A DNA stretch of 64,000 bases, taken from Tribonema minus (Eukaryota; Sar; Xanthophyceae; Tribonematales; Tribonemataceae). This document shows positions 31,148 to 58,455 of this stretch, in pieces. The translations under genes were made by a program, and so were the position numbers. Each line of letters begins with the position of its first letter. Position 1 is the first letter of the stretch. A model generated the notes under the pieces. It made no database searches and was not told the origin of the DNA. It was given only the letters and a program-made list of their open reading frames with translations. The stretch covers positions 62,001 through 126,000 of the forward strand of contig JAFCMP010000051.1 of the NCBI GenBank assembly GCA_017506865.1, written 5' to 3'.

Positions 31148-34100
31148 ATGGCGCTGGCAAGCGGCATTCCGTCCTATCCTGGCATGTTGGACCTGGCTCG
31201 ACAGCTTGACCAGGAGCAGATAGAGCTGCTCACACAGCGGACCGAGGGTCTGAGGGCAGAAAACGAGAATCTCAGGCAACAAATTAGCAAGTGCCAGCAC
31301 GACAGTAATGAGTTGGTGGCCTACTTCCAGCGCGAGGTAATATCAGATAGTTACGTGTTGGCTGCCCTTGTTGTTTGCCATGTTGTGTATGGGTCCAGCG
31401 TGCTCGTCCGGTCAACCTGTCATGAAGAATTTGTGTCGTGCTTGTTGCGAACGCAGTTCTGACGCTTGCGTACACAAATTATGCTGCGATAGGCGGGTAT
31501 AGCTCTGAATGCCACACTGCTGCTTTGTTTCCCTTTCTGGCCGTTTTGCCATCGTAGATGGAGATTAAAGACAACATCATCAACCAGCTTCGCGACGACC
31601 TATCGCACAAGGAGGCTGAATTCAGGCTGACGCTGAAGGAAGTGCAGGAAAAAGCTGCGCGTGAGCTGGAGGTGCTGGATGAGGAGAGCAAGGCCACTGA
31701 GAAGAAGCTCAAGGGGCAGGTCTCGCTGGTGAGACACATATTTGAACTGTTCTCCATTGCTGGAATGTGCCCCTATAGCTTTTCTGTTTTGTTGCTAATA
31801 GTGGTGGCACAACTGCTTTGTAGCGGCAGCTACAGGGCTTGTTCAAAACGACTTCAAAAATAGTAGTAAATACTCAAATCTGGTGTGCTCTGTCATCAAG
31901 CGCAATGAGCAGGCCGGCGAAAAGCTTATGGATCTGGTCTTGGGCACGTTGTTTGCATCAGCTGCAAATGGTGCCCGTTCTTTACCTGGTGAGGAACCCA
32001 ATTGAAGCAGACCAGCAGCATGCATGTCATGTGAGCCTTACTTCTTGCGTGTGCGATCTATTGCTGAATCAGTACTATGCTTACGCGCCATTGGCGTCTT
32101 GTGCGCGCAAGCCCTGACCCTAACCTACCCTACCCCTAAGCTCGTCTGTGCACTGTTCGTTCTGGCCTGTCATCACGCTTCCACTCTCTCCTGCTCTATA
32201 AACTCATGACACTAATAAGCTTCACATGGCCAGCGACAGTCTGACATGAGGTTGCCCAGGTGTTGCTGTACCTGCACCCGCTGTGCCACCTTACATGTAC
32301 TGTTGTGCACTGCAGAGTGCGTTGCAACTGCAGGTTTGGGGATTCGGCCGCCACGATGCGAGTCCCCTAGCAGGGTGCGCAGGGACATACTGCTGGTTTA
32401 GATTGAGCTGCTGCACACAACCTCAGCCGTTGCTTGCCGCGCCACTCAGCTGCACAGATTTGGCTGCTGTTCACCTGCACCTCTCGTGCCGCTTCAACTT
32501 AAAGCTGCACACAACTTCAACTGCTGCTTGCCGTGCCACTTCAGCTGGAAGGCGATCTGGCCAGCCTGGAGCAGTTCCGCGAGCGGCGCAACGCGCACCA
32601 GCATACATGTATATATATATACATAATATCGTGCTGGACTTCAACTGGAAGCTGTACACAACTTCAACCGCTGCTTGTCACTGGAGGGCGATCTGGCCAG
32701 CCTGGAGCAATTTCGCGAGAGGCGCACCGCATACAAGTATATATGTGTCGTGCTGTTTGTATGATTTAACCTGCTGCACACAACGTCAACTGCTGCTTGC
32801 CGTGCCATTCAGCTGGAAGGAGATCTAACCAGCCTGGAGCAGTTCCGCGAGCGGCGCAACGCGCACCAGCAGGCGGTGGAAGCGCTCAGCACACAGCTCA
32901 AGGAGGCGCAGGAGGCGCGCGCCGAAGCGATGCTGGAAATGGAGAGAAAGTTCCTCATGGACAAGAGCGCGGCGCAGAGGGTGAGCGCTGGGGCAGCTGT
33001 TGAAGTTGCATATGTCACACAAGCTGTTGCGATTACTATAAGTGTGATAGATAATACGCAGGAGGTGCGCGCCGAAGCAATACTGGAAACGGAGAGAAAA
33101 TTCATCATGGACAAGAGCGCGGCGCAGAGGATGAGCGCTGGGGCCGCTGTTGAAGTTGCATACACATAACCTTCATGAGATCTGAACAAGTGATAGGTAC
33201 GACGCTGGCCCTGGAAGCGGTTTGTCGTTTGTCATGCGCGGCCTGTGCACTGAGGTTCCAGTTCTAGCCGACGGATTGCGAATTTTCAATTCAGGCCAAT
33301 GCGAATGCTCATAAATGGGTGAGCAGTGTGGCACTCCACACCGCGTTGACAGCTGCTGCTGAAAGACATGCGGGGTAGGGTTGTACTGCTTGTAAGTCCT
33401 TGTGAGCAACGGGCGCTGTGCTCTAGCGAGGGGCAGCTGATGAAGTTGCATACACATGAACTGGCTGCGATCCAGTACAAGTGATAGATATGGCCCTAAA
33501 TGTAGTCTGCCATTTGTATTTGTCATGCCGCTTAAGATTGAAGTTCTAGCCGACAGATGCGCATTGTGAACTTTCATTTCTCAGCAACGCAAACGCAAAC
33601 GCTCATACGATGGACAAGAGAGCATGGGCACTGTGGCACTACGCACCGCGTTGACACCTTCTGCTGAAAGACGTGTGCTGTAGGGGTTGTACTGCTGCGA
33701 AGTCCTTGTGGGCATCGAGCGCTGCGCCGCTTTGCACTGCGCCATGAGCTGCAACTAGAGGATCTGCGTGTAAGAACCGCACCATTACATGTGAAGTCAG
33801 TGCTCAGCAGTGCCAGCGCTCAGCGTGTAGCCTAAACGATCACTGGGAGTGCTGCCTTTGCAGTGCTGGAGAGCAAGCACCCCCACCCACAGCTGTTTAG
33901 GAGCACAAAGTGGTGAATCAACACTACGTTGCATGCAAACCCTCCAACTTGCACATAATGCTAGAAGAGGCAAAACTGTTGTGTATACGCCATTCCTTTA
34001 AAGTGTGGTTATCACACGTAAGGGGATGTTTGTGTCCCCCCAATCCTCGATTGGTGATGCAGCAAGTGGATGAGTGATGGCAGGCGACTGTTGCGCAGGC

Positions 34101-37100
34101 GCATCCCGAAGTTCTTATCAGCTATCACGCTCACGGCAATTTACAGGCAGCAGTAACATCGTGCATAATGTATGCACACAATGCACGGGTGGAGGAATGG
34201 TGGCACCTCTGACTCCCCCACCAAATGTACCCCTATCCTTGATTTTGCAATGCAGGAGGTAGATAACTAGTGGCAGGCGACAGTGGCGCAGGCGCGTCGC
34301 GAAGCTCACAACACCCTAACCCCAACTAAAAAATAACTATAAATATAACTAAAAAGTAAGTATATTCGCAACTCTTGTGAAGCATAGATATTCGGCATAA
34401 GGTTATCTTTCTACCCCCTGATTGATTTGCTACGCTCCCTGATTTGCGATGCAGCAAGTGGATGAGAGATGGCAGGCGACAGTTGCGCAGGCGCGTCGCG
34501 AGGCTCACAACAGCCTCGGCGAAGAGGCTCAGCGCATGGCTCTGCAGCACCGCCGCATGTGCGTGGAGCTGCGCCTGCAGCAGCAGCTCACCACAGAGCT
34601 ACAAACGCACAACGAGAGGCTGTCGGCGCAGGTACGGTACAGACTGAGCGTTGATGATGGCACTTGTATTGAAGATGTATGTATGGAATGGTACAGCTTT
34701 TATTGCATTGAGGGTATGTATGGATGCTCTCAGAGAGGCATACCAGCAGCAGCTCACCACGGAGCTGCAGACGCACAACGAGAGGCTTTCGGCGCAGGTA
34801 CTGACGATGATGGTGATGATGGGGCTCATAGAAACATTGTACTTTGAAGTATGTATAGATGCTCTCGAAGACTCTCGAAGGTATACCAGCTGAAGTAGGT
34901 CATCATGGTGCTGCAGACGCTTAACGAGAGGCTCTCTGCGCAGGTAGGCACCTTTCAGTAATTCTCAAATTTGGGCACAAAAAAGGCCAGCGAGTGCCCA
35001 GCTTGCCATAAAATTTTTGAATGATCAAGTATGCCTGCATTTAGGGTTAGGAGCTGCGCCTGCAGCAGCAGCTCACCACGGAGCTGCAGACGCACAACAA
35101 GAGGCTGTCGGCGCAGGTACTGACTGAGCTTTGATGGTTGGGCGTGTATTTCATAGTATTGGATCAGAAGATGATGCTCTCAACGACTCGGACTCTCGGA
35201 GTCTTACCAGTAGCGGCTCACCACGGAGCTGCAGATGCACAACGAGAGGCGTTCGGCGCAGGTACTGACTGAGCTTTGATCGTTGGGCGTGTACTTCATA
35301 GTATTGGATCAGAAGATGATGCTCTCAACGACTCGGACTCTCGGAGTCTTACCAGTAGCGGCTCACCACGGAGCTGCAGATGCACAACGAGAGGCGTTCG
35401 GCGCAGGTACTGACTGAGCTTTGATGGTTGGGCGTGTACTTCATAGTATTGGATCAGAAGATGATGCTCTCAACGACTCGGACTCTCGGAGTCTTACCAG
35501 TAGCGGCTCACCACGGAGCTGCAGATGCACAACGAGAGGCGTTCGGCGCAGGTACTGACTGAGCTTTCAGGATAAACTTGTCTTGTTCTTTGTGTAAAAT
35601 CTCGCTTAGGGCGAGAAAAAAAAAAAAAGATGGTGTATGTCCAGCTTGCTACCAGATCTACATGATATCTTATGAACACCTTAAGAGTGTCTCAATGCGC
35701 ACTGAGCTTGAATTGTGTTCATAGATGCTCTCAGAGAGGTATATCAGCAGCGGCTCACCACGGAGTTGCAGACGCACAACGAGAGGCTGCTGTCGGCACA
35801 GGTACTGACTGAGCATAGGTGGTGGCGCTTGTATTGTATGTATACATGGTCTCAAAGGCTCTTGGAGGTAACCTAACCCTAACCCTAACCCTAACCCTAA
35901 ACATTAACAGCAGCTCAACATGGGGCTGAAAATGCACAACGAGAGGTATGTACTAAGACTAGGATTAGCTACGTATGGCATTGGTGAGAGGCTTTGGGCG
36001 CAGTTAAGTTGATCTAGTAGTTCTTGCTGAGACGCAAAGAACACCAAATGCGCAGGTAGGCATTTTCTAGTTATTCTTGATTTCGGGCGCGACGAGGGCC
36101 AGGGCCAGATGGTGGACGCCCAGCTTGCCATGTACTTCTGACTAATTCTTGGTTCACAGCGCGACAGGTAGCTATGCATGCAGGTAGGTTTAGGGTTTGG
36201 GTCAGCATACGCATACGTACCAGTTCTGGTGGGCTTGTACACCTGCAGCAATTGACGAGGGAGCTGCAGGTGCACTACCAGCAGGTACACGTGTGCATAC
36301 AGGTACTGGTGCACTTGCATCGTACCGAGTGAGTGTTGTCTTCCATGGCATGTCTCAACATGGGCTCTTGAATGTATTTTCGCAGTCAGTTGCCTGTATT
36401 TTCATGCTTTTCGTGCTTTTGCACATTCAGCTGATGGTTTTTCAAGAGACGGCACAGACCCTTGCCCTGCTGCGCACTGCACAGCAATCTGCGCTATCGC
36501 ATCGCAGTGTCACTGATAAAACAGTAGGCCACTGGACACCATCACACCTAATTACCAGAGGTTTGAAATACTAAGCAACATACTTCAGCACACAACTTCA
36601 CATGTGACACTTGTCACCATCACGCCTGGCGCAACGCAATGCAACCCGAAGAACTCACATTTTAGATGTTCAGCAGCGTGGAGGCTCTGGGTCTACAATT
36701 AGGGTCAGAACTAGGGTTATGGTCGCTGTGCGCAGTGACAGGTGGCTCATTACCATCAATTGTAATAACCTTGTTGCTATCATCAATTGTCACCAAAGGA
36801 AGTCGACAATTGCCGCGTGACTCCATGCCATTGTGATGTATTCACTGCAGAACAAACAAACTACAGCAACAACGAGCAGCGCAGCTACTTCTGTCTGTGT
36901 TGGGTGACATTGTAGGCGGCAACATTGACTTGCGGCGTGGACGATGTATAACTTGATCTTAAATGCATTGCTGCATGTAATGATTGTAATCAGAAACAAT
37001 GAAAGAAACTTGTGGGACAGAGCAAACACATATCATTGCATGTCTATACTTCTGTTCAGCTCGTCAGCAGCGTGCCATATGCACCAAGGCTCAATCCTGG

Positions 37101-40100
37101 GAATACGGTACAACACAATGCACATGTTCAAAGTCTTTTTGTTTTGTGGCCGGGCTCCGTGACCGTTGGGAGTTTTGCACTTGAATTATTATTCACATAA
37201 ATAGCATCACTTCATCACATCATCGCTATGACACCATATGCACCGTGGCGGAATCCAGACGAATGACTATAATTGATCGACATTGCACTGTGCTGCCATG
37301 TACAGGTGGCAACTTTTTTTTTGTGTGTGTCCAAGTGCCGTGAAACTTGAAGTATTGTACTTGAAGTCTAGTACTCATAACCTGCATTAATTTGTTGGGC
37401 ACTGTCGTCACCGTCACATCATATGCACCGCAGCATAATCCAGAGACGGCAAAATCCAGACAGATTACAGTCAATGAACTTTTATTTTTTTTCCTTTGCC
37501 TGGTGCTCTTACAGGTGGCGACATTGACTCGCGACGCAGAACTGCTGCAGGCGCAGGATGCCAAGAGGGCTGAGCAAGCACACGGCCGCACCAAAGAGGT
37601 GGTTTAGCGCAGAAGAACAAGAAGAGATCCGCCTTACGAGTAGCATTAGGACTAGATTTAGAGTTGCTGCACGCTCACGAGACATAGGAGTAGGTTTAGG
37701 ATTGGTGTTACAACTGCTGGCTCATGAGACAAAGTTCAAGTCGCATCCCCAAACCCTACCCCCAACACCGCTAAAGCTGTGTCAAGAGAGCTGAGCAAGC
37801 ACACACAGCCGCACCAAAGAGGTGGGTCAGCACAGCTCCGCCTCAGGGTTAGGGTTAGGGTTAGGGTTATAACAGAGCGCTGGGTACCACCATACCCTAC
37901 ATACCATACATACATGCGTACCTTCAGCGTGTGTCAGGCTCATGCCAGCGGTACAATGACGCTCACTCTTCACCATTACTCATCTCGTTGGGCTAGGATT
38001 AGGGTTAGGGTTGAGGGTTAGGGTTCGGTATCAAATGGCGGTGAGCTGCGCTCTCACTTCGGAGCTGCGGCATGCTGACGAGATAATGTGAAGTTCACCT
38101 CGCTTCCCCAAACCCTAACCAAACCCTAACCTCAACACTGTTGACGCTCAAGCAGGCACATGGCCACACCAAAGGGGTAAGTGGTCACAAGTTTGCCAAG
38201 TGGTCGCAAGTTTGCCTTGTGGAGCTGATGCTACAACCCAGACATGATTGATTTTTGTGACAGGAGACCGAGTCTTGGGACCAAGGTTTTACCGAGCCAC
38301 ACCAAAGGGGTGGGTTTGCCCTGTGGCACTGATGCACGGTGATGACACAACCCAGACATGATTTCTTGTTGTTTTGGGAGACTGAGTCACGGAACCAAAT
38401 CTACCGAGTTTCACTCAGTACTTGGGGTCCCAGACACCCCAATATCAATTGGTGACATTTCACTCAGTCTGCTAGTCTTGTGGGCAGCCAAACAATCATT
38501 TGGTCTGATGCTGGAGCACCGATTACATGTTAAGTGTTGTGCATGCGTGCCTAGGAGTGACCGCAGTCGGAACTGAACGACTAGAACGGCTAGTACCACA
38601 ACTCAACGCAACATAACCTGACCCTGATTCTATACTTGCACCACTCCGTATCCTCAATGTGCGATGCAGGTGCGCCGGCTCATGGAGCAAGTTGAAGCCC
38701 TGCAGAAGTCGCTCGACACAGCGGTCGCAGGCGTGCGGCGCGAGCGCACCTCACTATAAACTTAACCCTAGTTGAACTGTTAACCCTAACCCTACCCCTA
38801 ACGCCAAGCCGCCGCGCTGTAGCCGCAGTTTAAAATTAAAAACCTCAACGCGCCGCAGCCACCAGCTTCATCAATACTTGGAACCCTTGCAATTCTTCAT
38901 GTGCAATGCAGGTGCGCCGGCTCATGGAGCAAGTTGAAGGCCTGCAGAAGTCGCTCGACACAGCGGTCGCAGGCGCGCGGCGCGAGCGCACCTAACCCTA
39001 ACCCTAACCCTGATTATAACCCTAACCCTACCCCTAACCCCGCGCCTGTAGCGCCGCAGCCACCAGCTTCATCGCAGTAGTTTGACCCTTATTTGTATCT
39101 TCAACGTGCGATTCAGGTGCGTCGGCTTATGGAGCAAGTTGAAGCGCTGCAGAAGTCGCTCGACACAGCGCTCGCAGGCGCTAGACGCGAGCGAACAGAG
39201 AGCCGCCGCGCCGTGGCCAAAGAACTGGAGGAGCAGACGCTCGATGCGTCAGGGCTCAGGAGGCTGGTGGAGTTGAAGAACAGGGAGCTGCGCCACGTGC
39301 GCGGGCTCGCGCAGTACATACTGCAGCAGCGCAATGAGGTGGAGAGGTGAGTCGCCTGTAGTTCATTGTTTGAAGTTCACTCTATGAGGCCTGTTGCAGT
39401 GGCTATGGTGCAGTACATACTGCAGCAGCGCAATGAGGTGGAGAGGTGAGTCACCGGTTGAAATTCACTGTTTGAGGTTTGTAACTCGAGGCAGACTCAC
39501 ATCGCACAGGGCCGTGCAATGAGGCACACGTCTCAACGCACTACAGCAAAGCACATGCTTCAACACAATTACACAACCCAACATTTTGCCCAATGTGCGC
39601 GCACTTACAATAATGTACAGACTTCAAAATGCGCACTTGAGCAAAGCACACGCTTCAATAACCAAATCACACTTCAACATGCACACTTCAAGACCCCCCC
39701 CCCTGCCGTGTGTCTCGCAGCTTCTTCCTGCAGGCCCTACAGGAGGTGAAGGAGCGTGTCCAAGAAGAGAAGCGCATGCGCAGCGCTGCAAACGTGGCGC
39801 CAGCTTCTGGTAGCCCGACGGTGAGCATGCTGGCATGTACTTGATTCATTATAGATTTGTGACAATTTGCGCATGCTCGCGGTATTCCAGCGGGGAATGC
39901 GTGCACAAGGTCAGCAGGAGCACACGTGATGTATAGCACGTGGCGCACACCAAAGGCTTCCGCCCTCAAGCAGAAGTTGATGAAAGTACATACAGCTAGC
40001 CCATCACATAGAGAAAGCATCAGCCCTTTCATGAAACAAATGCAGCGCCAGCTTCTGGTGCGCTTGCAGGCATGCACGTGCGCCAGTGTCTGGTAGCCCG

Positions 40101-41784
40101 ACGGTGAGCATGCAGGGACAAACATACGGTCAGCTAGTACATGATCAACAGGAAAAGCATTAGCACTTTAGAGAAAGAAAGTGCATGGGCAGCGCCGCAA
40201 ATGCCGCGCCAGCTTCCCGTAGCCTGATGGTGAGCATGCTGGCATGTAGGTACATACATGCAGACTGGGCTGCTGCACAACAGCAAACTTCACGATTGCA
40301 TAGGACACCCGGCTCCGTTTGGGCCTTTATGAATGCAAGTCCAGAAGTACATAGGGTTAAGTACATACGGTTAAGTAGTACATCTACAACAGAGAAAACG
40401 TCAGCACTTTGTCGAAAGAAGGTGCATGCGCAGCTTTGGTAGCCCGACGGTGAGCATGCTGGCATAAACACCGTTTGACTCGTGGCCAATTGCTGCAGCA
40501 GCGGCGACCATGAATGTTGGTGGAAGACACTGTCGGCTAACCACCCCTCGTCGCCTAGAGCTCTTCAATGTTTTGGTTCGTTTCCGTAGATTCAGACTAG
40601 GCTGCCGCATGGGAGAAACTTCACAATTGCACAGGACACCCGGCCTCCCTTGGGGCCTTCAAAGATAGAAGTACAAGTCCAGGAGTACATACGGTTTCAC
40701 TACATAGTGCATCAACGATAGCGAAAGCGTCAGCACTGTAAAGACAGCAAGCGCATGCGCGGCGCTGCAAACGCCGCGCTAGCGTCTAGTAGCCCAACGG
40801 TCAGCATGAAGGCATGCACACACATTGCTTTGTGAGTGTCTGCCCACGCTTGGGATAATGCACCGTGGAAAGCGTGCACCAGCTCAGTAGGAGCATACGT
40901 GATGTGTAATATGACGTGGCGCACAATAGCCCTAGGTTTTCTGCCCCTCCAGCGGAAAGAAATGAAGTACATACGGTTTGCTATTACATTAACGAAAACG
41001 AATCAAGAGATTGTAGAGCTCTAGGTGACAAGAAATGTTTACAATTGAGAAAGCATCAGACCTTCTAAACAGAAAGCACACGCGCGGCGCTGCAAACGCC
41101 GCACCAGTTACTGGAAGCCCAGTGGCGAGCATACGCACACATTAGCTTTAGGAGTAGGGATAGGTTGGCAATTAAGGCGAAGGTCAGTATGAGTATAAAA
41201 AATGCGCAAAGAAAGAAAAAGTCACTGTCATCATGAATGATAGCCCACGCATGTAGCTACACTGCCACTGTGTGTGGCGGTTATGTTCCATTCCGACCCG
41301 CTAGCGAAGCAACGTATAGGTAATTGCGCTGCTAACGCATCACGATGGCCTGAGAGCATAGTGTACAATTCTCAACATGGTCATGTCCACGTTCATGCAT
41401 GTTGACTGCCGTGCTGAATGGTGGTGATTGGTTCAGTCCCCACTTACAGCAGGGGACACCCTTCTCCACTTTGCCTGCGACTCGCCGCCGCAGACACACG
41501 CAAAGCGCTCAAACGCGTTCAAGTCCCCCCCGAGGCTTCCGCACATCCACGCGACTTCAACTGTGCCTGGCCAACTTCAACATCAACTTCAACAACGGCC
41601 CACGAGCGCACTGCCCCTGGACCCCGACGCGCACATTGAACTTCAAGAACTCGGCTGGGAGGACAGGGAGCGCGTGCTGCGCCTCTTGTTTGCAAAGATC
41701 AACAATGTGCAGAGCCGCGTAGACGCAATGCCGCCGCACCCCCTGGAGGAGGTCGAGGGGGCGGATAGGTCTCTGTGCGTGTAG
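31148..41784 (+). CDS. BBOF1: BBOF1-like coiled-coil protein (basal body / ciliary), nine exons
   Basis: Exons 31148-31336, 31558-31728, 32813-32980, 34455-34631, 36431-36523 (less certain), 37515-37598, 39117-39346, 39721-39820 and 41494-41784 keep frame throughout and give about 500 residues. The protein is almost wholly coiled coil: EIKDNIINQLRDDLSHKEAE in exon 2, LEGDLTSLEQFRERRNAHQQ in exon 3, QVDERWQATVAQARREAHNS in exon 4. Exon 7 carries LKNRELRHVRGLAQYILQQR, exon 8 FFLQALQEVKERV and exon 9 LGWEDRERVLRLLFAKIN. These match the tail of BBOF1/DUF4515 proteins, which act at basal bodies and axonemes (from memory, not a search). All internal exon ends are phase 0 except 7/8. The last acceptor (CGCCGCAG) was chosen for phase and could be wrong. 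Introns hold echoes, telomere-type arrays and LINE tails. Confidence 0.7.
32400..32812 (+). repeat. Echoes of exon 3's 5' border
   Basis: Upstream of the true exon at 32813, the sequence 'CACAACNTCAACYGCTGCTTG ... acceptor ... CTGGA(A/G)GGCGATCTGGCC' appears near 32515-32610 and 32645-32740, with an older remnant near 32400-32460. The nearer copies include about 60 bp of the exon, then turn into ATATAT-rich intron sequence. The 32540 copy has a CAG acceptor; the 32680 copy has lost it. Confidence 0.85.
32981..33780 (+). repeat. Echoes of exon 3's 3' border
   Basis: The end of exon 3 (GAGGCGCGCGCCGAAGC to GGCGCAGAGG/GTGAGCGCTGG) is repeated at 33064-33165 with the donor changed from GTGAGC to ATGAGC. 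More decayed copies, recognisable by GGGGCAGCTGATGAAGTTGCATACACA-type and GGACAAGAGAGCATGGGCAC words, follow near 33420-33460 and 33605-33780. Confidence 0.8.
34060..34326 (+). repeat. Echoes of exon 4's 5' border
   Basis: GCAAGTGGATGAGTGATGGC (near 34062) and AGGAGGTAGATAACTAGTGG (near 34254), each followed by CAGGCGACAGT(G/T)GCGCAGGCGC, copy the start of exon 4 (34455). Both contain early stops in the exon's frame. The second copy runs GAAGCTCACAACA and then switches into CCCTAACCCC, a telomere-type word. Confidence 0.85.
35110..35551 (+). repeat. Near-perfect 145-bp tandem repeat, three units
   Basis: The landmark GGCGCAGGTAC falls at 35110, 35255, 35400 and 35545, exactly 145 bp apart, and the sequence between is nearly identical. 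This is the youngest part of the exon 4 echo array. Confidence 0.95.
35575..35700 (-). mobile_element. LINE-A 3' tail relic in an intron
   Basis: TGTAAAATCTCGCTTAGGGC, GCGAGAAAAA, CAGCTTGCTACCAGATCTAC and AAGAGTGTCTCAATG follow the order of LINE-A's 3' end (compare 5918-6030). Weaker remnants may exist at 34955-35030 and 36075-36170. Confidence 0.55.
35872..35900. repeat. Telomere-type repeat (CCCTAA) in an intron
   Basis: Four to five CCTAAC units directly before an exon 4 echo (acceptor ATTAACAG at 35908). Confidence 0.9.
36900..37320 (+). repeat. Echoes of exon 6's 5' border
   Basis: GTAGGCGGCAACATTGACTT with GCGGCGTGGACG (36912) and TGTACAGGTGGCAACTTTTT (37300) copy the acceptor and first bases of the exon at 37515 (TTACAG/GTGGCGACATTGACTCGC). 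Confidence 0.65.
37776..38320 (+). repeat. Echoes of exon 6's 3' border with telomere-type repeats
   Basis: AGAGAGCTGAGCAAGCACAC then GCCGCACCAAAGAG/GTGGGT (37783-37826), GGCCACACCAAAGGGGTAAG (near 38162) and GAGCCACACCAAAGGGGTGG (near 38294) copy the end of exon 6. TTAGGG-type arrays at 37844-37868 and 37994-38026 and CCCTAA words near 38105-38140 lie between them. Confidence 0.8.
38670..39116 (+). repeat. Two truncated copies of exon 7, each joined to telomere-type repeats
   Basis: Copies at 38670-38752 and 38912-38993 start with an intact acceptor (ATGCAG/GTGCGCCGGCTC) and follow exon 7 for about 82 bp to GCGCGAGCGCACC. At that same base both leave the exon: the first enters ACTATAAACTTAACCCTAG with more CCCTAA copies to 38803, the second goes straight into TAACCCTAACCCTAACCCT (to 39040). 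The true exon at 39117 continues AACAGAGAGCCGC. Confidence 0.9.
39347..39445 (+). repeat. Echo of exon 7's 3' border
   Basis: GCAGTACATACTGCAGCAGC through GGTGGAGAG/GTGAGTC at 39409-39452 repeats the end of exon 7 including its donor. Confidence 0.9.
40262..40362 (+). mobile_element. LINE-B 3' tail, copy 1
   Basis: ACTGGGCTGCTGCAC, TTCACGATTGCATAGGACAC and GGGCCTTTATGAATGCAAGT match the 3' UTR of LINE-B (minus strand 17385-17296). Only the tail is present. Confidence 0.65.
40483..40592 (+). repeat. Dispersed repeat R1, copy 2
   Basis: Same element as 23360-23475; here it directly abuts a LINE-B tail on its right. Confidence 0.65.
40597..40705 (+). mobile_element. LINE-B 3' tail, copy 2
   Basis: GACTAGGCTGCCGCA, CACAATTGCACAGGACACCC, GGCCTCCCTTGGGGCCTTCA and TACAAGTCCAGGAGTACATA follow the 3' end of LINE-B. 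Confidence 0.7.
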
Positions 41785-41849
41785 CAAGCACACGCACTGT
41801 GGACAGTGCGCACCAGGCATGAAACCAAACGCAAATATGGACCATAATA

Positions 41850-42400
41850 TATTTGCACACCTTACTACACGATTGGGCTGTTCTTTCACCACCGTGTTCA
41901 ACTTTGCTTCCAGCCACACTTGATACCGAACTGACAGATCTCTGTGCGTCTCAGCAGTTGATGTGCACTGTCTCACGCGGTTTGACCCTGGAGTTGACAT
42001 GAAAATAATCCTCCATGTATGTTACAACTCTGGGCCATTTGTGCAATAGATGAACAGTGTGCAGAGCCGTGTAGGCGCAATGCCACCACACCCGATGGAG
42101 GTTGTTGAGGGGGCAGGCAGATCTCTGTGCATCTGGTTGGCAGCTTATGCCGTGTAGATTACGCACGCTGCATGTGAGCCTGAGGGCACCGTAATATAGT
42201 GGCACGCTCTACTATACAACTGGGGCATTTGCATCACCGTGCTCAGCTTTGCTGGCCACTTGACACAGTGCACACAAGTCTCTATGCATCTTGTTGGCAT
42301 TTTGAATCACCGTGCTCAAGTTTGCTTCTCAGACTGCCGCTGGACATTGTGCATGCAGGTCATACAGGTCTCTATGTATGCGTCTTATTGGCGGCATGCG
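41850..42400 (+). repeat. Echoes of the BBOF1-like gene's last exon
   Basis: 42046-42140 repeats AACAGTGTGCAGAGCCGTGT, GCGCAATGCCACCACAC, TGGAGG and GGTTGTTGAGGGGGCAGG, then AGATCTCTGTGCATC, that is the end of the exon through its stop and beyond. Shorter remnants of TCTCTGTGCGTC occur near 41938 and 42275. Confidence 0.75.
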
Positions 42401-43559
42401 CTGAGCGCGCGGCGGACGCTGTGACTATCCTTATAGCGGCATTGTCTACTTCTACTATACAACTTGGCAATCTCGTGCCTCAATCACCTCTTTATCCGAC
42501 CTCTTTACACTGTGCTGTAACTTTCTTTCTCAAGTGTACTACAGAGTAATATATACAATATATTAGGTATGGCAAGTCCTCAACAATGATATGCAATACA
42601 TGGTGTACTACTGCTGCGGCCGCATAAGTCAGTGCAACTCGAACTTGAACTTAAAGAAAAGGAGGTTGCAATGCTTGACAGGCGTCTGCGTGTCTGTGAG
42701 CGGCACCCGCACACCTGCAAGTTGAAGACTATCATGGGGGCAACCTATCAATTGCAGTGCATGTCTGCAGATCCCAGTGGATGCCTATGACTTGAACTAC
42801 AGTGAAAGATACTTGAGAGTGGTAGGGGTAGAAGAAGGAATTGTGTCACCACCAACGGAAGTGTTTGCGCACACTGACTGACTTGGACTCATGAAAGCCC
42901 TAGAATAGGCTGGCTGGTTGCCGCAGCATGCAGCCGATTATAGGCAACGCCTTCAACAAGACTATTGGCGTTCACATTGCTGATATTCAAGTGACCTGAA
43001 GACGCATGACTGCACGTGCAATCGTGTTGACTGTTTTGCACTACTTTAGTGGGCGTGAGCTCAACTTGAGTGCAAGGCAGCTCGTACAAGCCACCTGTCG
43101 TTGAGTTGCAGGATGTCTTGAAGTTGGAGCCTGTCCTGATCACTTGTACGCAGCAGGTGCGTGTCTTGATGGTGTTGCCGAGAAGCGCGCAGAAGCTGAC
43201 CTTCCAGCATGGTCAAACACAGGTCGCGTTAATCTCCTCTCTCACACTAGCATTTGTGTGCAATGAACAATCAATAGCGAAGCAACGGTCCCTGCAGGGC
43301 TGAATCAAGCACAGACCAAGTGACCCACAAAGTGCAGCAGGCGTTGCCAGTTGAACTTCCCAGGCGAAACCTTTGGCTTCCCGAGGCCCCCCCTCATGCC
43401 ACTGACAGGCGACGTGGAACACAGCTACTTCGACACACAAAAGTGGCAACACGCATCGCAAAAACAAAAAGAAATGCTTAATTTCACCTTGCAGCGGCGA
43501 CAAAATTGTTATTTACAACCTTCGTGCGTGTGCGCTTGTGTTGTGTGTTTGTGTTTCGT
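42401..43559. other. Intergenic stretch with possible orphan exons
   Basis: A plus-strand frame at 42632-42790 reads VQLELELKEKEVAMLDRRLR, which looks like coiled coil and has an AG acceptor (AAGTCAG) in front. A second frame from 42771 (after TCTGCAG) reads IPVDAYDLNYSERYLRVVGV and stops at 42881. Neither joins the BBOF1-like model in phase, so they may belong to an unseen isoform or a separate small gene. Nothing else was recognised. Confidence 0.3.
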
Positions 43560-43564
43560 CTTCA

Positions 43565-43680
43565 AGCGCTGACGCTGCGCTACGCGTTGACAGCTGTGGT
43601 TCGCGACTTCTTGCCCTCGCCGAGCATGTGCGCCGCGTACTCCGAGAACGTTCCCAGGAAAGAAGTTTCAACTTCAAGCG
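43565..43680 (-). repeat. Echo of the ABC-F last exon's 3' end
   Basis: Plus-strand GACGCTGCGCTACGCGTTGA and CGCGACTTCTTGCCCTCGCC through GAGAACGTTCCCAGGAAAGA copy 43681-43777, including the stop codon region. Confidence 0.85.
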
Positions 43681-43691
43681 GTGACGCTGCG

Positions 43692-46600: not shown

Positions 46601-47291
46601 GTGCTCACCGGCTCGTCCAGTATCAATACGTTGCTCGCTACTGCTGACCCTCGCCACTGTAGTATCACAATGAATACTGAGGATGGAACCAGGAATTAGG
46701 GTACACAAGGTATTCCGTCCGTGCTCACCGGCTCGTCGAGTATCAATACGTCGGGCTTCTCCAGCAGCATGCGGCACAGCGCGACGCGGCGCCGCTCGCC
46801 GCCGCTGAGGCTCGCCACCGGCGCGCGCGGCGGCGGCACATGCAGGCGCGCCATCGCAATCTCCACCTCGTGCTGCAGCGCCCACGCGCCTAGGTCGTCT
46901 ATGCGCGTTTGCAGCGCGGCCTGCTCCGTCAGCAGCGCGTCGAAATCGGCGTCGGGATCGCCCATTGCCGCGCTGATGGCGTCGAAACGCGCCAGCAGCG
47001 CCTCCTGCTCCGCTATCCCCAGCCGCACGTTGCCCATGACATCGAGATCCGGATCCAGTTGCGGCTCCTGGGGTAGGTATAGGATTTTGAGGCCGGGGCG
47101 GCGCCAAAGCGCTCCGTCGAATTCCGCGTCGAGTCCCGCTAGAATCTTCATGAGGGACGACTTGCCGCAGCCGTTGGCGCCGAGGACGCCGATCTTGGCG
47201 CCGTGGTTGAAGTTGAGGCTGACGCCGTCGAAGAGGGTGCGGCCGCCGGGCAGGCGCTTGCGCACGTCCACCAGTGAGAGCACCACCTCCG
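43692..47291 (-). CDS. ettA: ABC-F translation factor ATPase, EttA type (N-terminus not found)
   Basis: Exons 47291-46729, 45595-44661 and 43836-43692 join in phase to about 545 residues, close to E. coli EttA (555), lacking only the first few residues plus any targeting peptide. ABC1: Walker A GANGCGKSS, signature LSGGERRRVALCRMLLEKP, Walker B LILDEP/TNHLD (split by the intron), H-switch VTHDRYFLDNV. The linker EGNYSAWLAAKQRR and the ARELNWIQTRG arm follow. ABC2: Walker A GANGTGKTT, LSGGERNRVHLAKVL, LLFDEPSNDLD, VISHDR. The last exon adds FFLDRICTHTLAFEDDG and ends GEGKKSRITAVNA. All catalytic motifs are intact. EttA-type proteins gate ribosome entry into elongation; in an alga a plastid or mitochondrial site is plausible but unproven because exon 1, ending in phase 1 upstream of 47292, could not be identified. 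Echoes surround every exon found. Confidence 0.85.
43990..44036 (-). repeat. Echo of the ABC-F last exon's 5' border
   Basis: CGTGCATATGCAAACCAGGA with AAAAATCTGCGTG copies the acceptor and first bases of the exon at 43836. Confidence 0.75.
44300..44640 (-). repeat. Two echoes of the second ABC-F exon's 3' border
   Basis: Copies at 44305-44400 and 44495-44583 repeat the exon end (CTCGAGGG to HDR/GTGAGT on the minus strand) with donors GTAAGT and GTGAGT. The copy at 44319-44353 also contains a 35-bp imperfect palindrome absent from the true exon. Confidence 0.85.
45599..45870 (-). repeat. Echoes of the second ABC-F exon's 5' border
   Basis: CAACTGCCGCGTGCACTCCG with TTTCCAGGTGGTTGGTCTGT (45661-45702) and AATCGCGTGCACTCCGCATC with CAGGTGGTTGGCCTGTGGCA (45794-45837) copy the beginning of the exon at 45595 and its acceptor. 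They are separated by GGCAGTTACGG-type repeats. Confidence 0.85.
46040..46728 (-). repeat. Five echoes of the first ABC-F exon's 3' border
   Basis: The segment encoding LCRMLLEKPDVLILDEP and its GTGAGC donor is repeated near 46052, 46208, 46332, 46494 and 46612. The last two share an internal deletion joining ATACGTTGCTCG to the GCCACTGCTGACCC part, and are near-identical 118-bp units. Confidence 0.9.
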
Positions 47292-48250
47292 CTGCCGAGG
47301 GGGGGCAGAGGGAGGAGGACAGATGCAGTTTGCGTGTGAGTGCGCTAATTGAGTGCGTACGCACTATACTGCGTGTTGAAGTTGAGGCTCACGCCGTCAA
47401 AGAGGGTGCGGCCGCCGGGCAGGCGCTTGCGCGCGTCCCCCAGCGAGAGCACCACCTCCACTGCGAGCGATGACAATGATGTTGTCGTTAATGACGCAAG
47501 GTCAAGGTATGAGTTGCATAGCAGAGTGCACTGGAGCGGTTGTGCAGTTGAACTTGAAGTTAGCAAGCGCCCGTCTCGTGCACGTCCACCAGCAAGAGCA
47601 CCACCTCCGCTGTGAGCTATAACAAAAAATTCGGTTAGGCAACGATATTGTTATTGTTGAGGCAAGGTCAAGGAACGGCGGGTTGTGAATTGAGCGCACA
47701 CACACTGTAATGTGCTACCGCGAGCTGTCGTTGAAATTGACGTTCGGCCGCCGGGCAGGCGCTTGCGCACATCAACTGGCGACAGCACCACCTCTGCTGC
47801 ATATAAAGCAGAGGAAGGAGGACAGAAGCAGTCGCCACGTGGGTGCGCGGTGAAAATGTTGAAGTTGAAGTTGAGACAATGTTTGCGCGCAATACCACCT
47901 CCGCTGTCAGCGATGACAACACAATTGTTATTGTGAGGGCAAGGCCAAGGTACGATGGCTCGCGATGGGAACGTATAGTGCACTTCAGGTGCGGAGCTGT
48001 GTCCTGGCGGTGCAGCTGAACTTGAAGTCAGCAAGCGCCTTCTTTCTGGCGCTCGTCTACTGGCGATAGCACCAGTTCCGCTGCCAATGGAGCGGACAGC
48101 AGAACAGAGGCGCAACATTGTGTCGGTTACAGATACGTTTTGCAATTCAGCGCAGTATCTCATGCTGGAGCATGGCTGGCTTGCAATCCAAGTTGAAGTC
48201 TCGTTTGGCGTTTGCTTAGTGACAGCATAAAGTCAGCTGCCGCCGTACCC
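47292..48250 (-). repeat. Echoes of the first ABC-F exon's 5' border
   Basis: The exon start (acceptor CAG, then GGAGGTGGTGCTCTC, GTGCGCAAGCGCCTGCC, GGCGGCCGCACCCTC) recurs near 47375-47462, 47565-47612, 47745-47798, about 47890, 48035-48083 and, very decayed, near 48190-48240. All are upstream in transcript order; five of the six still have AG at the acceptor. Each turns into AACTTCAA-type sequence after 40-90 bp of exon. Confidence 0.9.
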
Positions 48251-52352: not shown

Positions 52353-52679
52353 GTATGCACCAGCAGGATGTCAGTGCCCGGAGGAGCGCGCCCTAAAGCT
52401 CTCAAGGGCATCGCCCTGGCGCGCTTACGCTCGGCACTGTCGGCAGCGCTCCACATGGCGTACTCTGGCCGTGTCATGACACACATGGCAGAATCCAGGG
52501 GGGGGGGCACATGGAGGAGGACGTAGGGGAGGACCCCGAGATGCCATTTGGCGGCGGCGGCGTTTGAGTGGTTGTCGTTGCGACACTTTCAGACTGTCAT
52601 ACGACATGTAGATTCCTTACAGCTAGATGCCAATCATCTGGGCTTTTTCGCGCCCTGAGCGAGAATTAACAAAAAGTAC
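52353..52679 (+). mobile_element. LINE-A, 5'-truncated copy
   Basis: Plus-strand CCAGCAGGATGTCAGTGCCC through GATGCCATTTGGCGGCGG and the 3' UTR (ending CGCCCTGAGCGAGAATTAAC, AAAAAGTAC) matches LINE-A from within the endonuclease tail (SVPGGARPKALKGI) to its end. A G-run near 52500 shifts the frame relative to the 5918-6700 copy. This copy defines the element's 3' terminus best. Confidence 0.8.
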
Positions 52680-53501
52680 ATAAGCAGAGCTCGGGGTGCC
52701 AAGTGCGTGCTTCCTGGTTTCAAAAAGGGAAAATTCTTTCCTGCAGAGCAAGCCTCACATGCAAACAGCAAAGAAAACAAGCCCTTTGCTGGGGTGCCAG
52801 CAACGCAGAGTTCGATGCACGTACGGCAAAACTGACGTTGTTGGAGTTTGGCTTCCAACAGCTCAGGGCCACGACATACAGTCAAACACGCTGGCTGTCT
52901 TTCTTTTGTCAAGGGGGTGTGAGGAGCAAATGTTGCGCCACACCAGCGGACGAGCACTACTGGAATGAGACTCAAATTGAGCCTGCCCTAAACAAACGCT
53001 GCCACATTGCGCAACGTCAAGTCTCGCATATTCACCCTGACCCGCCCACGAGCGCAGTGAAGCAGCTGTGGTACCTGCAGGCTGCAAGCATTGCATGCAG
53101 CCAGCCACCTCTGCATGCAGCGCGGCTAGGACTTTCCAGTGAACGATGCACTGGAGCCTCATGCTGTGGTTTACACACCTGCTCCTGGAAAGCATGATAC
53201 CTATTAGGGTCAGCACATACTACAAATACAGCCTTTCTTCCAAAGTAGAGCGGACGTGTGCGCTTTTGCCAGCAAGCGCTCAACAATTGCAGAGCATGCA
53301 ACAGTCCCAAGAGCCCGCATCGTGACCAGCCCCACCCGGAAAACATCAACACGAATATACACAGACACACACTCAGAAACCAGGGGGAGGGGGGGGGACA
53401 AAGTCCAATCCACATGTAGGCAAATAAGGGATGCACGCGCGACGCAACAATTACTCAACACGCAACGGGCGACCGCAGCAGCAGCGCTACTGCTACCGCC
53501 G
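52680..53501. other. Gene-free stretch
   Basis: Open frames on both strands (plus 52703-53197, minus 53436-53032) carry no recognised domain. The 3' UTR of the PDZ/PH gene should lie at the right end. Confidence 0.45.
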
Positions 53502-56500
53502 CTACGTCGCTGGACGGCACACCCTCAAAATCTGTTCGCGCAGCCGCTCCAGCTCCGGCAGCGACTCGCTGGCAAAGTTCATCTGCTTGAAGTGCCAGCC
53601 GCTCTTCTTGACGAAGAACGTGTGCAGCGGCGGCGCGCCGTCGTACTGCTTGGCGCGAATGGGCGACGTCCACCACGCGCTGCCGAGCTTCACCGCCTTG
53701 ACGCGCTGCGTCACGGGCGCGCGCTGAAACACCGCGATGACCACGTGGTCAAACGCCTGCTTGCTGTTGTACAGCTGCAGCACGTTGGGCCGCGCCACCG
53801 CGCCGCCTATGACGAAGTAGCGCCGTTTCCACACCTTGTACGAGCGCGGCGCGCCTGCACACGTCTTGTACAGGCAGCGACCCACGTTGGCCTCCTCGCC
53901 GCCGCCGCCGCGCGCAAACGTAACGCGCATCGGCCGCGGCGCCGCCTTGATGGCCTGAGGTCAGAGTAGTCACAGTAGTCAGAGAGTCAGAGTCAGGGTC
54001 AGAGTAAAGGACATGTTTGAACGTCACGCGCATCGGCCGCGGCGCCGCCTTGATGGCCTGCCGCATATAGAGTCAGAGTCAGGGTCAGGGTCAGGGTCAG
54101 AGTACATTGGACGCCGGGCAGAGTGCATAGAACGTCTCGCGTATCAGCCGCGGCGCCGCTTTTGATGGCCTGACGCGTGGAGAGGCAGAGTCAGGGTAAG
54201 AGTAATGGCCTGACGCGTGGAGATACAGAGTCAGGGTCAGAGTCAAGGTATATCAGACACCGGGTAGAGTGCACTGAACGTCATTCACACCGGCGTGGCG
54301 CCGCCTTGATGGCCTGATGCATGGAGTGTCAGAGTGGGTCAGCGTACTTTAGATGGTGGGTAGAGTGCTACAGGTGTCATGCGCATCGGCTACAGCGCCG
54401 CCTCGAGAGCCTGCCGCATGTAGAGTCAGAGCCAGACTCGGACTCTGCCAGTGCTAAGGGTGATCTGAGATCTCGTTCATGACCCTTGACTACTGGAATG
54501 TATTGCCGTTGGCAGGTCCACTACGGGTGGTACCACACTGGCCCGTGCGACATCGTGCGACATCGCCTTAATGCACTGCCGCCAGCGATGCATCGGGAGT
54601 TGGAGTCGAAGTCAGGGGCACACGTTTGTAGATCTTCTTCACACGGCACAGCTGAGACGCACGATGTTGACGTAAGAATAGGCTGCAACGATCAAAGCGT
54701 TTCATGTGTGCACTGCTGAGGATAGCCCAAAGGACACCATGTCAAGAGCCGCCGCATCCATTTGACAGGAAATGAGACTGAAGGAACTCAAGAAAGGTAC
54801 AAGAACAAAAACAGGCCTCGCAGAGCGACCACAGCGCCTTGATGGCCTGCAAAAACTGGTACAAGATACTTCCACTTGCAACCACGCTCAGCGACTATTC
54901 CTATGTACATACCCTTCTCTCTCAGCTTCGTTCAAGTGTGCCCGAACACTCATGCCTATGTACAGTAATTCAACAGCCAAGGCCAGGTGTGCGGGTCGCA
55001 CAGTAACTGCCAGCCGAAATCACCGTGCAAGTCTCTGAACACTAAGAGCAACGGGGGGCTACAAAACGAACATGTTCCAACATCTGCACGGCAGTTCAGT
55101 GCCCGTGAAAGGCCACCGGTGTACTTTTATTATATTCCACTTGTGGCTGTGGAAATGCCACCGGTGTACACCCTGTGTACTACTTCAAAGTACAACAGTT
55201 CTAGTTGCACAGTAGATCATCGCGCCGCCATGCCAAGAAATGTGTCCTGTACATCAAGATCAAGTGCAGTGTGCACTAGGCATACAGCAGTTACACCACA
55301 TGTAGGTATGTATGCATGCACCTGCAGCACGCGTCTGCAGGCATCAATGCCCTATGAGACTCTCCCTGTTCACCAAAAGCACCATGCTGCCAAACCTTGC
55401 GCCTGTTTGGCAGTTTCCACATGCATATGCTTTGTACATAAATGCTTCAATGTACGCGTACACACATGTGTGTGCATAGCCTGTGCTTAGTATGACTTAC
55501 ATTGAAGAAGTAGTGCCGTCATGGATCACTGCAGCGGCGCTCGCCCTGTATACCTCAAGCATCTGGCTGCCGACAGTTACGCCATTGCAGTTACGCCATG
55601 GCAGTTGTTGAATGCCCTTGCACGGCCACGTTGTCCACCCCCTCTGTTCGCTGCTACTTGCCATCAGCACTACAAGCCCCTCTATTAAGTCCACAAACAC
55701 TGCTGCTGCATGTATGTGCCAATGTCATGCATGCCCTCCATGCTCTCCCATTAACCGCCAGTATCTTGCCAATGGCAATTACAGACAGTTAACGGTCCAG
55801 TTTCGGTGACAGTTGTGCAGTGCTGCTGCATGGATGTCATATCCCCACCTCGCCTCCTTCAATGGTTCCATCAAACTTATTTAACAGTATCATGGTCTGG
55901 TGAATCGAGTATCACAGTAAGTTGGGCCAGCAGAAACTCCACGTGTGAGAAGCGGGGCAGTTGCGATGATCAAATACTGACTTCACTGCAATGATTTCGC
56001 CACTGGCAGTTACACTGCGCTTCAGACGCAACGGTTTCGCTGACAGTTACGCTGTGCTGCTGCATGAGCTGAACCTCCGCACCTCGACCTCAGCACTGCT
56101 TCCTTCATGATTGTTACACAGCATCATTATCTGATGACATTAATTATCTGATGACATGAATTTCGAAAAACGTCACGTTAGCAGAACTTTCAGGTGACAC
56201 TGACATACGGGACATACGTGATGATCAAATGCTTACTCGCTTGCGCTTGCAGCGTTTGCTGGCAGCTCTCTGCCAGCAGGAGCATCAGTGTGATTACTGG
56301 CGTCCATGTCGCACATTCACATCACGTCACCCGCTTTCACTTAAAAATTTGTAAGAGTAAAATCAATTGTTTAACTTCAATATCTGGTATATATGGGATG
56401 ATACCCCTAGCATTTCTCTTAGGATTAGTGCCAGACGTCCAAGCCCTGCTGCTGCGCAACTCACTGCGATGCGTCAGCGCACACGGCCGTGCGTTGGCTG

Positions 56501-58455
56501 AGTGTACGCAGTTCGCCAAAGTGGGCATGGGCGGACCTGCGCCTGCAGCACTTCTCATGCGTGTTGCCGCTGCATGCGCACTCGTCTCTCAACTGCTTAC
56601 TCCATAGCATTGTCAAGAGTAGGAATAACCCAAGTCAAGAGGATGTGGTTCACCCTTATGCAAACGCATCCTCTGCAAGGGTCGTGCCCTCCATGCTGTC
56701 TCCTTTCACCGCGGCAGTTATGCTTACAAATAGACTTACAGTTACACTGCCGTTCCAAAATCGTCCCTCGCTGCCTCCACTGCGTATTCATTCGCTCGTC
56801 ACTATACAATACACACACAACATTACAAGAGACGCCGCTTGAGGTTAGATGCACGTGCAATCCACTGTCGTGCGCACGCGCCTGCAGCACCTCTGCATGT
56901 GATGCTCTCTAGACTGTCCCCTTGCGCCGCGGCAGTTACACTGACAATTACGCTGTGCCGCTGCATGGGCCCCAACACTATCTCTCACTTGCTCCACTGC
57001 CGAATTCACATCTACTACATGTGGTTTATGTGTTAGAGAGACGTTGTTTTAAGTTTCCATGTATGCATGATGATGTACATAATCATCACACGCGACATCA
57101 TTGCTTTTCCATAAAACAATGTATGCCCACAGTCAAGCACGCACCTGCAGCACCTCCGCATACGTCATGCCCTCCACGCTGTCCCCGTTCACCGCGAGCA
57201 CCTTGCTCCCGACAGTCACGCCATGCCCCTGTGCGGGCCCCATATCCACCACCAGGCTCACCACCGCCCTCTCCCGCCGCTGCTCAGACCCCGGCACCCA
57301 CTCATCCTTCCTCTCCAGCAGCATGCCCAGCTTCTTCTCCGCCTTGGCAAAGTCGGCGTGGTACACGTCGTTGCCGCGCGCGCCGCCGCCGTCGCCGCTG
57401 CCGCGCACGCTCGCGCGCCGCTGCAGCTCAAACACGCCGCCGCCGTCGCCGCCGCCGCCGTTGTCGTCAAAATCATCGTCGGACAGGTCGCTGCCGGCGC
57501 CGTCAAACTCGTCGCCGCCGCTGCCGCCGCTGAGGCGCGCACCGCCGCTGCCGCCGCCGCCGAGCGCGCCGTTCCACGCAGCAGCGCTCATCGACTTGGA
57601 CCCCGCGAGGCCACGGCGCGAGGGCGGCGCCGCGGGCGCGGCGCTCGCGCGGCGCTCCGTCATCGACGCCGTCGTCAGCGACGCCATGGACATGCCGGAC
57701 GTGCCGCCGGGCAGCGATGGCCGCGCGGATCGGCTCGGCGGCGGCGGCGCCGGCAGCGTCCAGGGGTCGTACGCGGCGGCTGTCGTGGCGGTGGATATGG
57801 AGCTGCTGCGGGAGGCGGCGGTGCCCTTCCAAGTGTGCTGCTGCTGCTGCTGCTGCTGGGGGAAGGGCTGCTGCTGCGCGCTGTACGTGAACCCCGGTTG
57901 CTGCTGCTGCTGCTGCTGCTGTCGGAAGGGCGCTGTAGATGACGCGCTCCACTCCGATAGTGACTGCCGCTGCTGCTGCGGCGGCTGCAGCTGCATCGGT
58001 TCCGCGGCAGAGGCCCCAGATGCGGCGAACATGTCGTCGAAGGGGTTGAAGTCGCCGCTCGGAGGCAACTGCTGCTGCTGCGCAGGTGGGTGAGCGGTGT
58101 AATGCTGGTGCGGCGGAGGGGACAGCCCACCAGCAGGCCATGGCGCAGGTGGAGAAAAGGCCAACTGCTGTCGATGGAGCTGCTGCTGTGGTTGATACGC
58201 AGGCGGTTGTTGCGCTGTGGCGAAGTGCTGGTAAGCCTGCTGATGCTGGGCTGGCTGCTGCTGCTGCTGCTGCGATGGTTGATAGTGCTGTTGCTGAAAG
58301 GCAGATGAATGCTGTTGTTGAAAAGGAGAGGGATCTTGCTGCTGCCACGCAAACGGGTTCGGCTGCATCGCATGCTGCTGCATCGGCACACCGAGGGCAT
58401 CAAAAGGGTTGACCTCCCCGTTGCCGCTGTCTGCCGCTTCGAACGGGTTCATCAT
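53502..58455 (-). CDS. NPF/poly-Q protein with PDZ-like and PH-like domains, two exons
   Basis: Exons 58455-57145 and 53954-53502 join in phase 0 to 587 residues; donor CTGCAG/GTGCGT, acceptor CCTCAG. The N-terminus has NPF tripeptides at residues 3-5, 16-18 and 33-35 and another near 150; NPF is the ligand of EH domains in endocytic proteins. A Gln-rich region (to about 240), a Ser/Ala-rich and then an Asp/Gly-rich segment follow. The end of exon 1 (VVSLVVDMGPAQ, VTVGSKVLAVNGDSVEGMTY, AEVLQ) is the GLGF-to-helix part of a PDZ-like fold, completed across the intron by AIKAAPRPMRVTF. Exon 2 goes on to a PH-like domain (YKVWKRRYFVIGG, VLQLYNSKQAFDHV, FFVKKSGWHF) with a C-terminal helix LPELERLREQIL. 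A membrane-trafficking adaptor is inferred. The single 3.2-kb intron is full of border echoes. Confidence 0.75.
53955..54860 (-). repeat. Echoes of the PDZ/PH gene's exon 2 5' border
   Basis: CGCATCGGCCGCGGCGCCGC then CTTGATGGCCTG (exon start plus CAG acceptor on the minus strand) recurs near 54032, 54145, 54285, 54382 and, decayed, 54826. The spacers are AGTCAGAGTCAGGGTC-type short repeats. The copies lie upstream in transcript order. Confidence 0.9.
55500..57144 (-). repeat. Echoes of the PDZ/PH gene's exon 1 3' border
   Basis: Decayed copies of the exon 1 end (plus strand: CGCACCTGCAGCACCTCCGC, ATGCCCTCCACGCTGTCCCC, ACCGCGAGC, CCGACAGTCACGCCATGCCC) lie near 56875-56975 (GCCTGCAGCACCTCTGCATG), 56685-56755 (GTGCCCTCCATGCTGTCTCC), 56440-56600, 56010-56100, 55725-55860 and 55560-55640. 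The copy at 56875 keeps the exon end but the following bases no longer give the original GTGCGT context. Confidence 0.75.

Follow-up and report, generated by a model that had tools for sequence, protein, structure and literature searches.

In the yellow-green alga Tribonema minus, introns of three genes carry direct, diverged copies of adjoining exon ends, here called echoes. The genes encode a BBOF1-like protein, an ABC-F/EttA-like protein and a PDZ protein, and lie in a window of 64,000 nucleotides (nt), the whole stretch of DNA that was analysed (positions 62001-126000 of contig C51, JAFCMP010000051.1, in a genome assembly of 158 Mb and 554 contigs). The echoes are real and recurrent in the T. 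minus genome, and they suggest that introns can grow by copying their own edges. We put a probability of roughly two in three on the reading that these introns were lengthened by exon-anchored tandem duplications, in which a founding duplication across an exon border was followed by amplification.

Thirteen exons were defined in the three genes, with edges set against the T. minus protein P0241. The eight exons of the BBOF1-like gene show canonical GT-AG splicing and their translation equals P0241 except for one insert of 22 amino acids in the latter (469/491 residues, one gap). The A2-A3 junction of the ABC-F gene is supported by a transcript-derived protein, P0121. The gene originally predicted to encode both a PDZ and a PH domain keeps the former, which was confirmed by Pfam, and loses the latter, originally ascribed to exon P2, for which no Pfam match was found at 0.01. 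A fourth gene, proposed to belong to the UPF0060 family, could not be recovered: the ten open reading frames of 47.6-55.5 kb, the only ones searched, gave no such Pfam match. The exons and their echoes are as follows, in window coordinates.

BBOF1-like gene, 31148-41784, plus strand
Exon B1, with the start codon, 31148-31336, plus strand; the next intron (221 bp) is echo-free
Exon B2, 31558-31728, plus strand; echo-free
Exon B3, 32813-32980, plus strand; echoes on both sides
Two overlapping echoes upstream of B3, of its first 57-59 nt, 32484-32737, plus strand; 84 and 96% identity
Echo downstream of B3, of its last 74 nt, 33057-33208, plus strand
Exon B4, 34455-34631, plus strand
Two echoes upstream of B4, of its first 60-62 nt, 34045-34122 and 34236-34317 (within 34045-34317), plus strand
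Seven scored echoes downstream of B4, of its last 54-80 nt, 34744-35849, plus strand; GT at the donor place in all
Array of 145 bp among the B4 downstream echoes, 35063-35567, plus strand
B4 echo present in P0241 as the 22-amino-acid insert, 35051-35116, plus strand
Exon B5, 37515-37598, plus strand; weaker downstream echo at 37780-37835, score 30.5
Exon B6, 39117-39346, plus strand; echoes upstream at 38648-38749 and 38850-38991, downstream at 39410-39479
Exon B7, 39721-39820, plus strand; downstream echoes at 40175-40248, 40741-40997 and 41064-41173
Last exon B8, with the stop codon, 41494-41784, plus strand; its end copied at about 42030-42291, past the gene end
ABC-F/EttA-like gene, 47291-43692, minus strand
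Exon A1, 46729-47291, minus strand; upstream echoes at 47372-47673, 47575-47612 and 47742-47848
Copies downstream of A1, 46049-46751, minus strand, including a 116-bp array at 46401-46751
Exon A2, 44661-45595, minus strand; echoes upstream at 45649-45726 and 45748-45858, downstream within 44304-44578
End of an A2 echo and following intron, 45698-45769, minus strand; translation matches the N-terminus of P0121
Last exon A3, with the stop codon, 43692-43836, minus strand; its end copied at about 43553-43668
PDZ gene, 57600-53502, minus strand
Exon P1, start approximate, 57145-57600, minus strand; downstream echoes at 56874-56974 and 56666-56724
Exon P2, with the stop codon, 53502-53954, minus strand; upstream echoes with a period of about 100 bp within 54020-54213, related repeats to 54435

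Echoes were scored by aligning each exon end to its own flank (with exons masked), to the inverted flank and to flanks of foreign genes, with a cut-off of at least 35. Of 24 scored sides, three (B8, A3, P2) lie at the stop-codon end of a gene and 21 face introns, the stretch upstream of A1 being counted as intron without proof; two upstream rows of P1, low-complexity coding matches, were excluded from the echo counts. An echo in the exon's own flank was found on 15 of the 24 sides, 13 of them among the 21 facing introns and the remaining two (B8, A3) beyond the stop codon. None of the 24 inverted flanks reached the cut-off (maximum 17.5), and neither did any of 1170 pairings with foreign-gene flanks, two of which reached 28. 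In a self-comparison of the window, repeat pairs within 3 kb were direct in 83 cases and inverted in four. In 14 of the 15 echoed sides the match ends at most 1 nt from the exon end; at B8 it falls 6 nt short. The claim that the 5' part of an exon is copied upstream and its 3' part downstream thus holds for all three genes. It was too strong to say that nearly every internal border is echoed, since eight of the 21 intron-facing sides have no echo of at least 35 (B1 downstream, B2 on both sides, B5 upstream and, at 30.5, downstream, B7 upstream, B8 upstream and, at 19, A3 upstream). Nor are the copies ordered from clear to faint: the copy nearer to the exon is the more similar one in 19 pairs and the less similar one in 25.

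The proposed comparison of own with unrelated pairings was made with the window genes and with 18 exons from elsewhere in the genome, picked from Pfam match tables before their sequence was viewed. Eleven of these are partial-domain exons at nine DEAD or kinase loci from a hand list of 20 (the tables hold 36 and 131 matches), and seven are rows 2-8 of a 19-row table of AAA matches. An echo of at least 35 was present in 8 of the 18 exons (3/11 DEAD/kinase, 5/7 AAA) and on 11 of 36 sides, as compared with none of 36 inverted flanks and 4 of 2072 foreign pairings, every one of the latter between the AAA loci L052-L054. The copied part lay on the flank's side of the domain match in 10 of the 11 echoed sides. 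Match edges are not exon edges, and at L048 and L049 the copied part stops short of them, 18 and 26 nt within the match; at L051 the copy spans 240 of the 267 nt of the match. Eight WD40 exons (L001-L008) were treated separately, since WD repeats are similar to one another; a score of 35 was reached by one of them, on one side. Beyond the 3' end of a SET-domain gene in the window (27844-29092) there are several diverged direct copies of about 150 bp, perhaps a gene-end version of echoes.

Altogether 52 copies at 27 borders were available for inspection, 35 from the window and 17 from the sampled exons. All are direct, with an identity of 71-96% (median 84%) and an exonic part of 35-240 nt (median 62), and there are 1-7 scored copies per border. 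A whole exon or whole domain match occurs in none of the 52. Exonic breakpoints lie a median of 4 nt apart within a border (44 pairs) and 25 nt apart between borders, and most copies therefore seem to have arisen by amplifying a single founding duplication and not by many independent ones. The alignment of the nearest copy is as long as its offset or longer at 11 of the 27 borders, which is what a tandem unit should show. Of the 14,374 bp in ten introns, echoes make up 24% and intron-only repeats 4%; local direct repeats of any kind, echoes included, account for 45%. Intron length correlates with echo number (Spearman 0.84, n=10), a relation that is partly built in, each copy adding length.

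These features suggest the following course of events. A segment of about 100-400 bp straddling an exon border would first be duplicated in tandem, leaving one exon copy complete, so that the mRNA can still be made while the spare exon end turns intronic. That the small array is then amplified is indicated by the shared exonic breakpoints; unequal exchange or replication slippage is the probable means. The copies appear to drift neutrally from then on, with the exon still constrained. In the last and least secure step, the ancestral introns would have been short, so that duplications touching an intron usually carried an exon end and introns grew with echoes at their borders. Some echoes retain their splice sites and occasionally enter transcripts or gene models. 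The earlier idea that introns grow by repeated tandem duplications, each with an exonic and an intronic breakpoint, is in part sustained by the direct and local copies, the tandem-like arrangement at 11/27 borders, the absence of whole exons from the copies and the correlation with length. It needs two corrections: the shared breakpoints favour amplification over many independent duplications for most copies, and similarity does not fall with distance.

Whether the exon border is special in this process was considered against the alternative that tandem duplication is uniform and exon ends merely stay recognisable for longer, one copy being conserved. The window shows 35 copies, 15 echoed sides of 24 and five intron-only families, giving a border to family ratio of 3.0. 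Among the pairs that are at least 85% identical, 17 involve exons, 11 are between echoes and one is intron-only. In a shuffle test of young pairs, 17 of 26 involved exons where 8.1 were expected (sd 2.3; the highest value among 2000 shuffles was 19); because the pairs are not independent, the test was replaced by simulations of duplication in which harmful events are rejected, exons are constrained and introns neutral, under assumed distributions. The rows give copies, borders out of 26, families, and young exon versus young intron-only pairs.

100-bp start, rate 0.02: 39.2; 12.1; 6.3; 7.9 versus 10.3 (intron total 15.0 kb)
100-bp start, rate 0.03: 64.5; 15.7; 11.5; 20.1 versus 47.1
400-bp start: 22.0; 8.8; 11.9; 5.6 versus 11.6
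900-bp start, 10-fold border preference: 12.3; 6.8; 4.3; 4.3 versus 2.1
900-bp start, 20-fold border preference: 21.3; 12.3; 3.6; 6.8 versus 1.1
100-bp start, 5-fold border preference: 47.4; 15.2; 2.7; 12.8 versus 1.3

Uniform duplication from very short introns gives border to family ratios of 3.81 and 1.47, and the uniform 100-bp start at rate 0.02 comes near the data in copies, borders, families and intron total. Local direct repeats are found away from exons too, as this explanation would have it. However, uniform duplication in long introns of about the present length yields ratios of only 0.28 and 0.60, and every setting free of bias predicts too many young intron-only pairs (10.3, 47.1 and 11.6 against the single one seen). 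Local duplication is not spread evenly either: none of the 150-nt probes from the transposable-element-like and intergenic DNA of 0-24 kb finds a local direct copy of at least 28, and between 32 and 48 kb 42-78% of the probes per 4-kb bin have one. The best fit was obtained with 100-bp introns and a 5-fold border preference. We therefore regard strictly uniform duplication as rather unlikely; the simulations favour a preference for borders, or the amplification of arrays in which an exon end is already present.

Several observations weigh against exon-anchored duplication and amplification. At the other 16 of the 27 borders the offset exceeds the aligned length, which leaves tandem adjacency unsupported. 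Read without gaps, copy and parent lose their identity sharply on the intron side, to about 0.4 within 4-6 nt, directly behind the splice signal, at the acceptors of B3, B4, B6, A1, A2 and P2 and the donors of B3-B7, A1, A2 and P1. Gapped alignments of the copies continue into the intron at many borders; the drop probably reflects drift of both sides together with insertions and deletions, and some copies may truly end at the splice site. Ten of the 18 sampled exons have no echo of at least 35. The simulations are our own and leave out unequal exchange. Without border preference, uniform growth of introns from 100 bp should leave about 10 young intron-only pairs where one was observed, and 900-bp introns with a 20-fold preference also come near the data, so short ancestral introns are plausible and not required. 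In a virus-like region of the genome 9.8% of 858 probes have a local direct copy, mostly in a few arrays, and local direct repeats are thus not unique to introns. Finally, a haplotype test on 100 kb each of contigs C90 and C179 was uninformative on host introns, the supposed haplotigs being giant-virus-like copies; they diverge by 4.65% and show no tandem copy-number difference of at least 100 bp in 65.7 kb of aligned blocks (arrays between blocks excluded).

The two regions of this test (C90:764001-864000 and C179:152201-252200, L019-L038) are intron-poor and contain a family-B DNA polymerase, a UvrD-type helicase, a C5 DNA methylase, a kinase and very long open reading frames. They are probably an endogenous giant-virus element present in at least two copies.

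The echoes could also be functional, as alternative exon ends or decoy splice sites maintained by selection. In ungapped register the splice place holds AG in 11 of the 12 copies on the acceptor side; of the 19 on the donor side, 14 hold GT and three GC. Moreover, one echo is found as a 22-amino-acid part of P0241. However, the splice dinucleotides are retained about as well as the neighbouring exon bases and no better, which gives no sign of selection on the copies. Mismatches by codon position (173/1299, 154/1313 and 296/1306, or 13.3, 11.7 and 22.7%) are as expected when the copies are neutral and the exon alone is constrained. The nearest offset is a multiple of three at 12 of the 27 borders and not at the other 15, no copy contains a whole exon, and the homologue P0242 lacks the insert. 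Such a function is consequently improbable.

An artefact of assembly is more improbable still. Tandem arrays are prone to misassembly, and the analysis used the assembly alone. Yet copies with 71-96% identity are too diverged to be duplicated reads, and protein P0121 of another alga has an echo-like stretch at the same place. Least probable are copies of introner-like or transposable elements with captured exon ends, for which a dispersed repeat in the B4-B5 intron could speak, since the echoes are private to their genes (0/1170 foreign pairs), with the caveat that a genome search with 31.1-36.1 kb scored 40 of 235 candidates.

That dispersed repeat (35600-35706) has at least 37 other matches in the genome with 75-90% identity among the 40 scored candidates. 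Short telomere-like runs of CCCTAA/AGGGTT are also present in introns of the BBOF1-like gene, at 35872-35900, 37845-37869 and 38991-39040.

Two proteins bear on the history and the annotation of the echoes. P0121, derived from a transcript of another, related alga, is 97% identical over 66% of the query. It begins with MHDRYSLDNITAVTAITAVSATIAQ and then runs directly into exon A2. In the window, 45769-45698 encodes HDRYFLDSVTAVTTITAATAPSHR, which is the end of one A2 echo plus the intron after it; a second, shorter A2 echo precedes the real exon here, whereas in P0121 the exon follows immediately, with one copy fewer. The founding A2 echo thus seems to be common to both algae, with differing copy number, as judged from this one protein. 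The insert in P0241 corresponds to the B4 echo at 35051-35116 and is missing from the Chrysoparadoxa homologue, P0242; misannotation and exonisation are both possible. Annotators should be warned that an intronic echo sits inside this public Tribonema protein model. An eL27a-like protein encoded at 50171-50605 matches its T. minus record in 137 of 145 positions (94%), unlike the BBOF1-like protein, which is identical; the discrepancy could stem from a second copy of the gene, from a difference between strains or from annotation.

Long introns are usually credited to transposons and random insertions. With border copies covering 24% and local direct repeats 45% of the ten introns, a good share of growth here would be self-copying. 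We propose only tentatively that exon-anchored tandem duplication has been a main route of intron growth in this yellow-green algal lineage, several-fold and in many genes, with a real preference for duplications that span a border over those confined to the intron. If so, stuttering would serve eukaryotes in general as a way to lengthen introns and would not be a bird oddity of GC-rich microchromosomes.

Contrary to what was first supposed, the pattern has a name. A literature search on stuttering terms found a single paper, Hron et al. 2026 (PMC12954441), whose available text names exon stuttering on chicken dot chromosomes, and literature listings for Tribonema suggested no report of such echoes. 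That text describes imperfect tandem copies of a lateral exon part with its splice site in the adjoining intron, in 236 introns of 115 genes and in 190 of 5,572 dot-chromosome introns (3.4%). The source lies at most one base from the border in more than 90% of cases, with exon parts of 20-187 bp and 1-44 copies. Length polymorphism was shown, intron lengths vary among birds, and no cases are given for other vertebrates except for gerbil genes, mentioned without data. GC-rich regions or quadruplex motifs are presented as an association, not as a definition, and purely intronic expansion was expected by the authors to be commoner.

Other relatives are more distant. In the part of Ma, Lan and Niu 2016 (PMC4974935) that was available, one border-spanning tandem duplication is described in potato RdRp; it concerns one gene and one event, in which the copy yielded a new intron and an inserted exon without serial echoes. 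Intron gain by duplication inside an exon (Rogers-type; treated in the available text of Lehmann et al. 2010, PMC2891723) shares with the echoes a local tandem duplication that involves exonic sequence and splice sites. Its duplicated unit, however, sits within a single exon and creates an intron, whereas the algal copies cross the borders of existing introns, and nearly all units in the window reach from exon into intron. The duplicated donor elements in the Lipomyces paper (PMC7138796, available in part) measure 4-7 nt. Introner elements place the same sequence in many unrelated genes, and the algal echoes are private to their genes among the genes and loci compared.

By anatomy, the window echoes are exon stuttering. 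The three features named for it include extensive variation of intron length within a species; between the alga and a relative, P0121 suggests a difference of one copy. Direct copies stand in the adjoining intron at 13/21 intron-facing sides, with strict tandem adjacency at 11/27 borders. The source is at the border (within 1 nt) in 14/15 window sides, and the available text gives over 90% for chicken. The copies are confined to the neighbouring intron (foreign pairings 0/1170 and 4/2072, the latter all between AAA loci), and exon parts and copy numbers (35-240 nt, 1-7 scored) can be set beside the chicken values cited above. As in sequence stuttering, the introns are highly repetitive, with 45% of 14,374 bp in repeats or echoes. 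The association with GC or quadruplexes is absent in the alga: GC is 0.516, 0.570 and 0.554 across the three genes, and quadruplex motifs number eight in their 19.8 kb against 47 in the first 26 kb of the window. With ordinary GC and no enrichment of motifs, such a cause of the echoes is unsupported here, and that a bird phenomenon recurs in so remote a lineage, at ordinary base composition, weakens the case for GC content or quadruplexes as its general cause. Two further differences concern frequency and focus. The alga, a stramenopile, has echoes in 8/18 sampled exons, against 3.4% of introns on bird dot chromosomes, and intron-only repeats are scarce in it (five families), whereas in birds they were expected to be commoner, so far as the available text states. 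What is new here is exon stuttering far outside the vertebrates, common among the sampled exons and more exon-centred than in birds.

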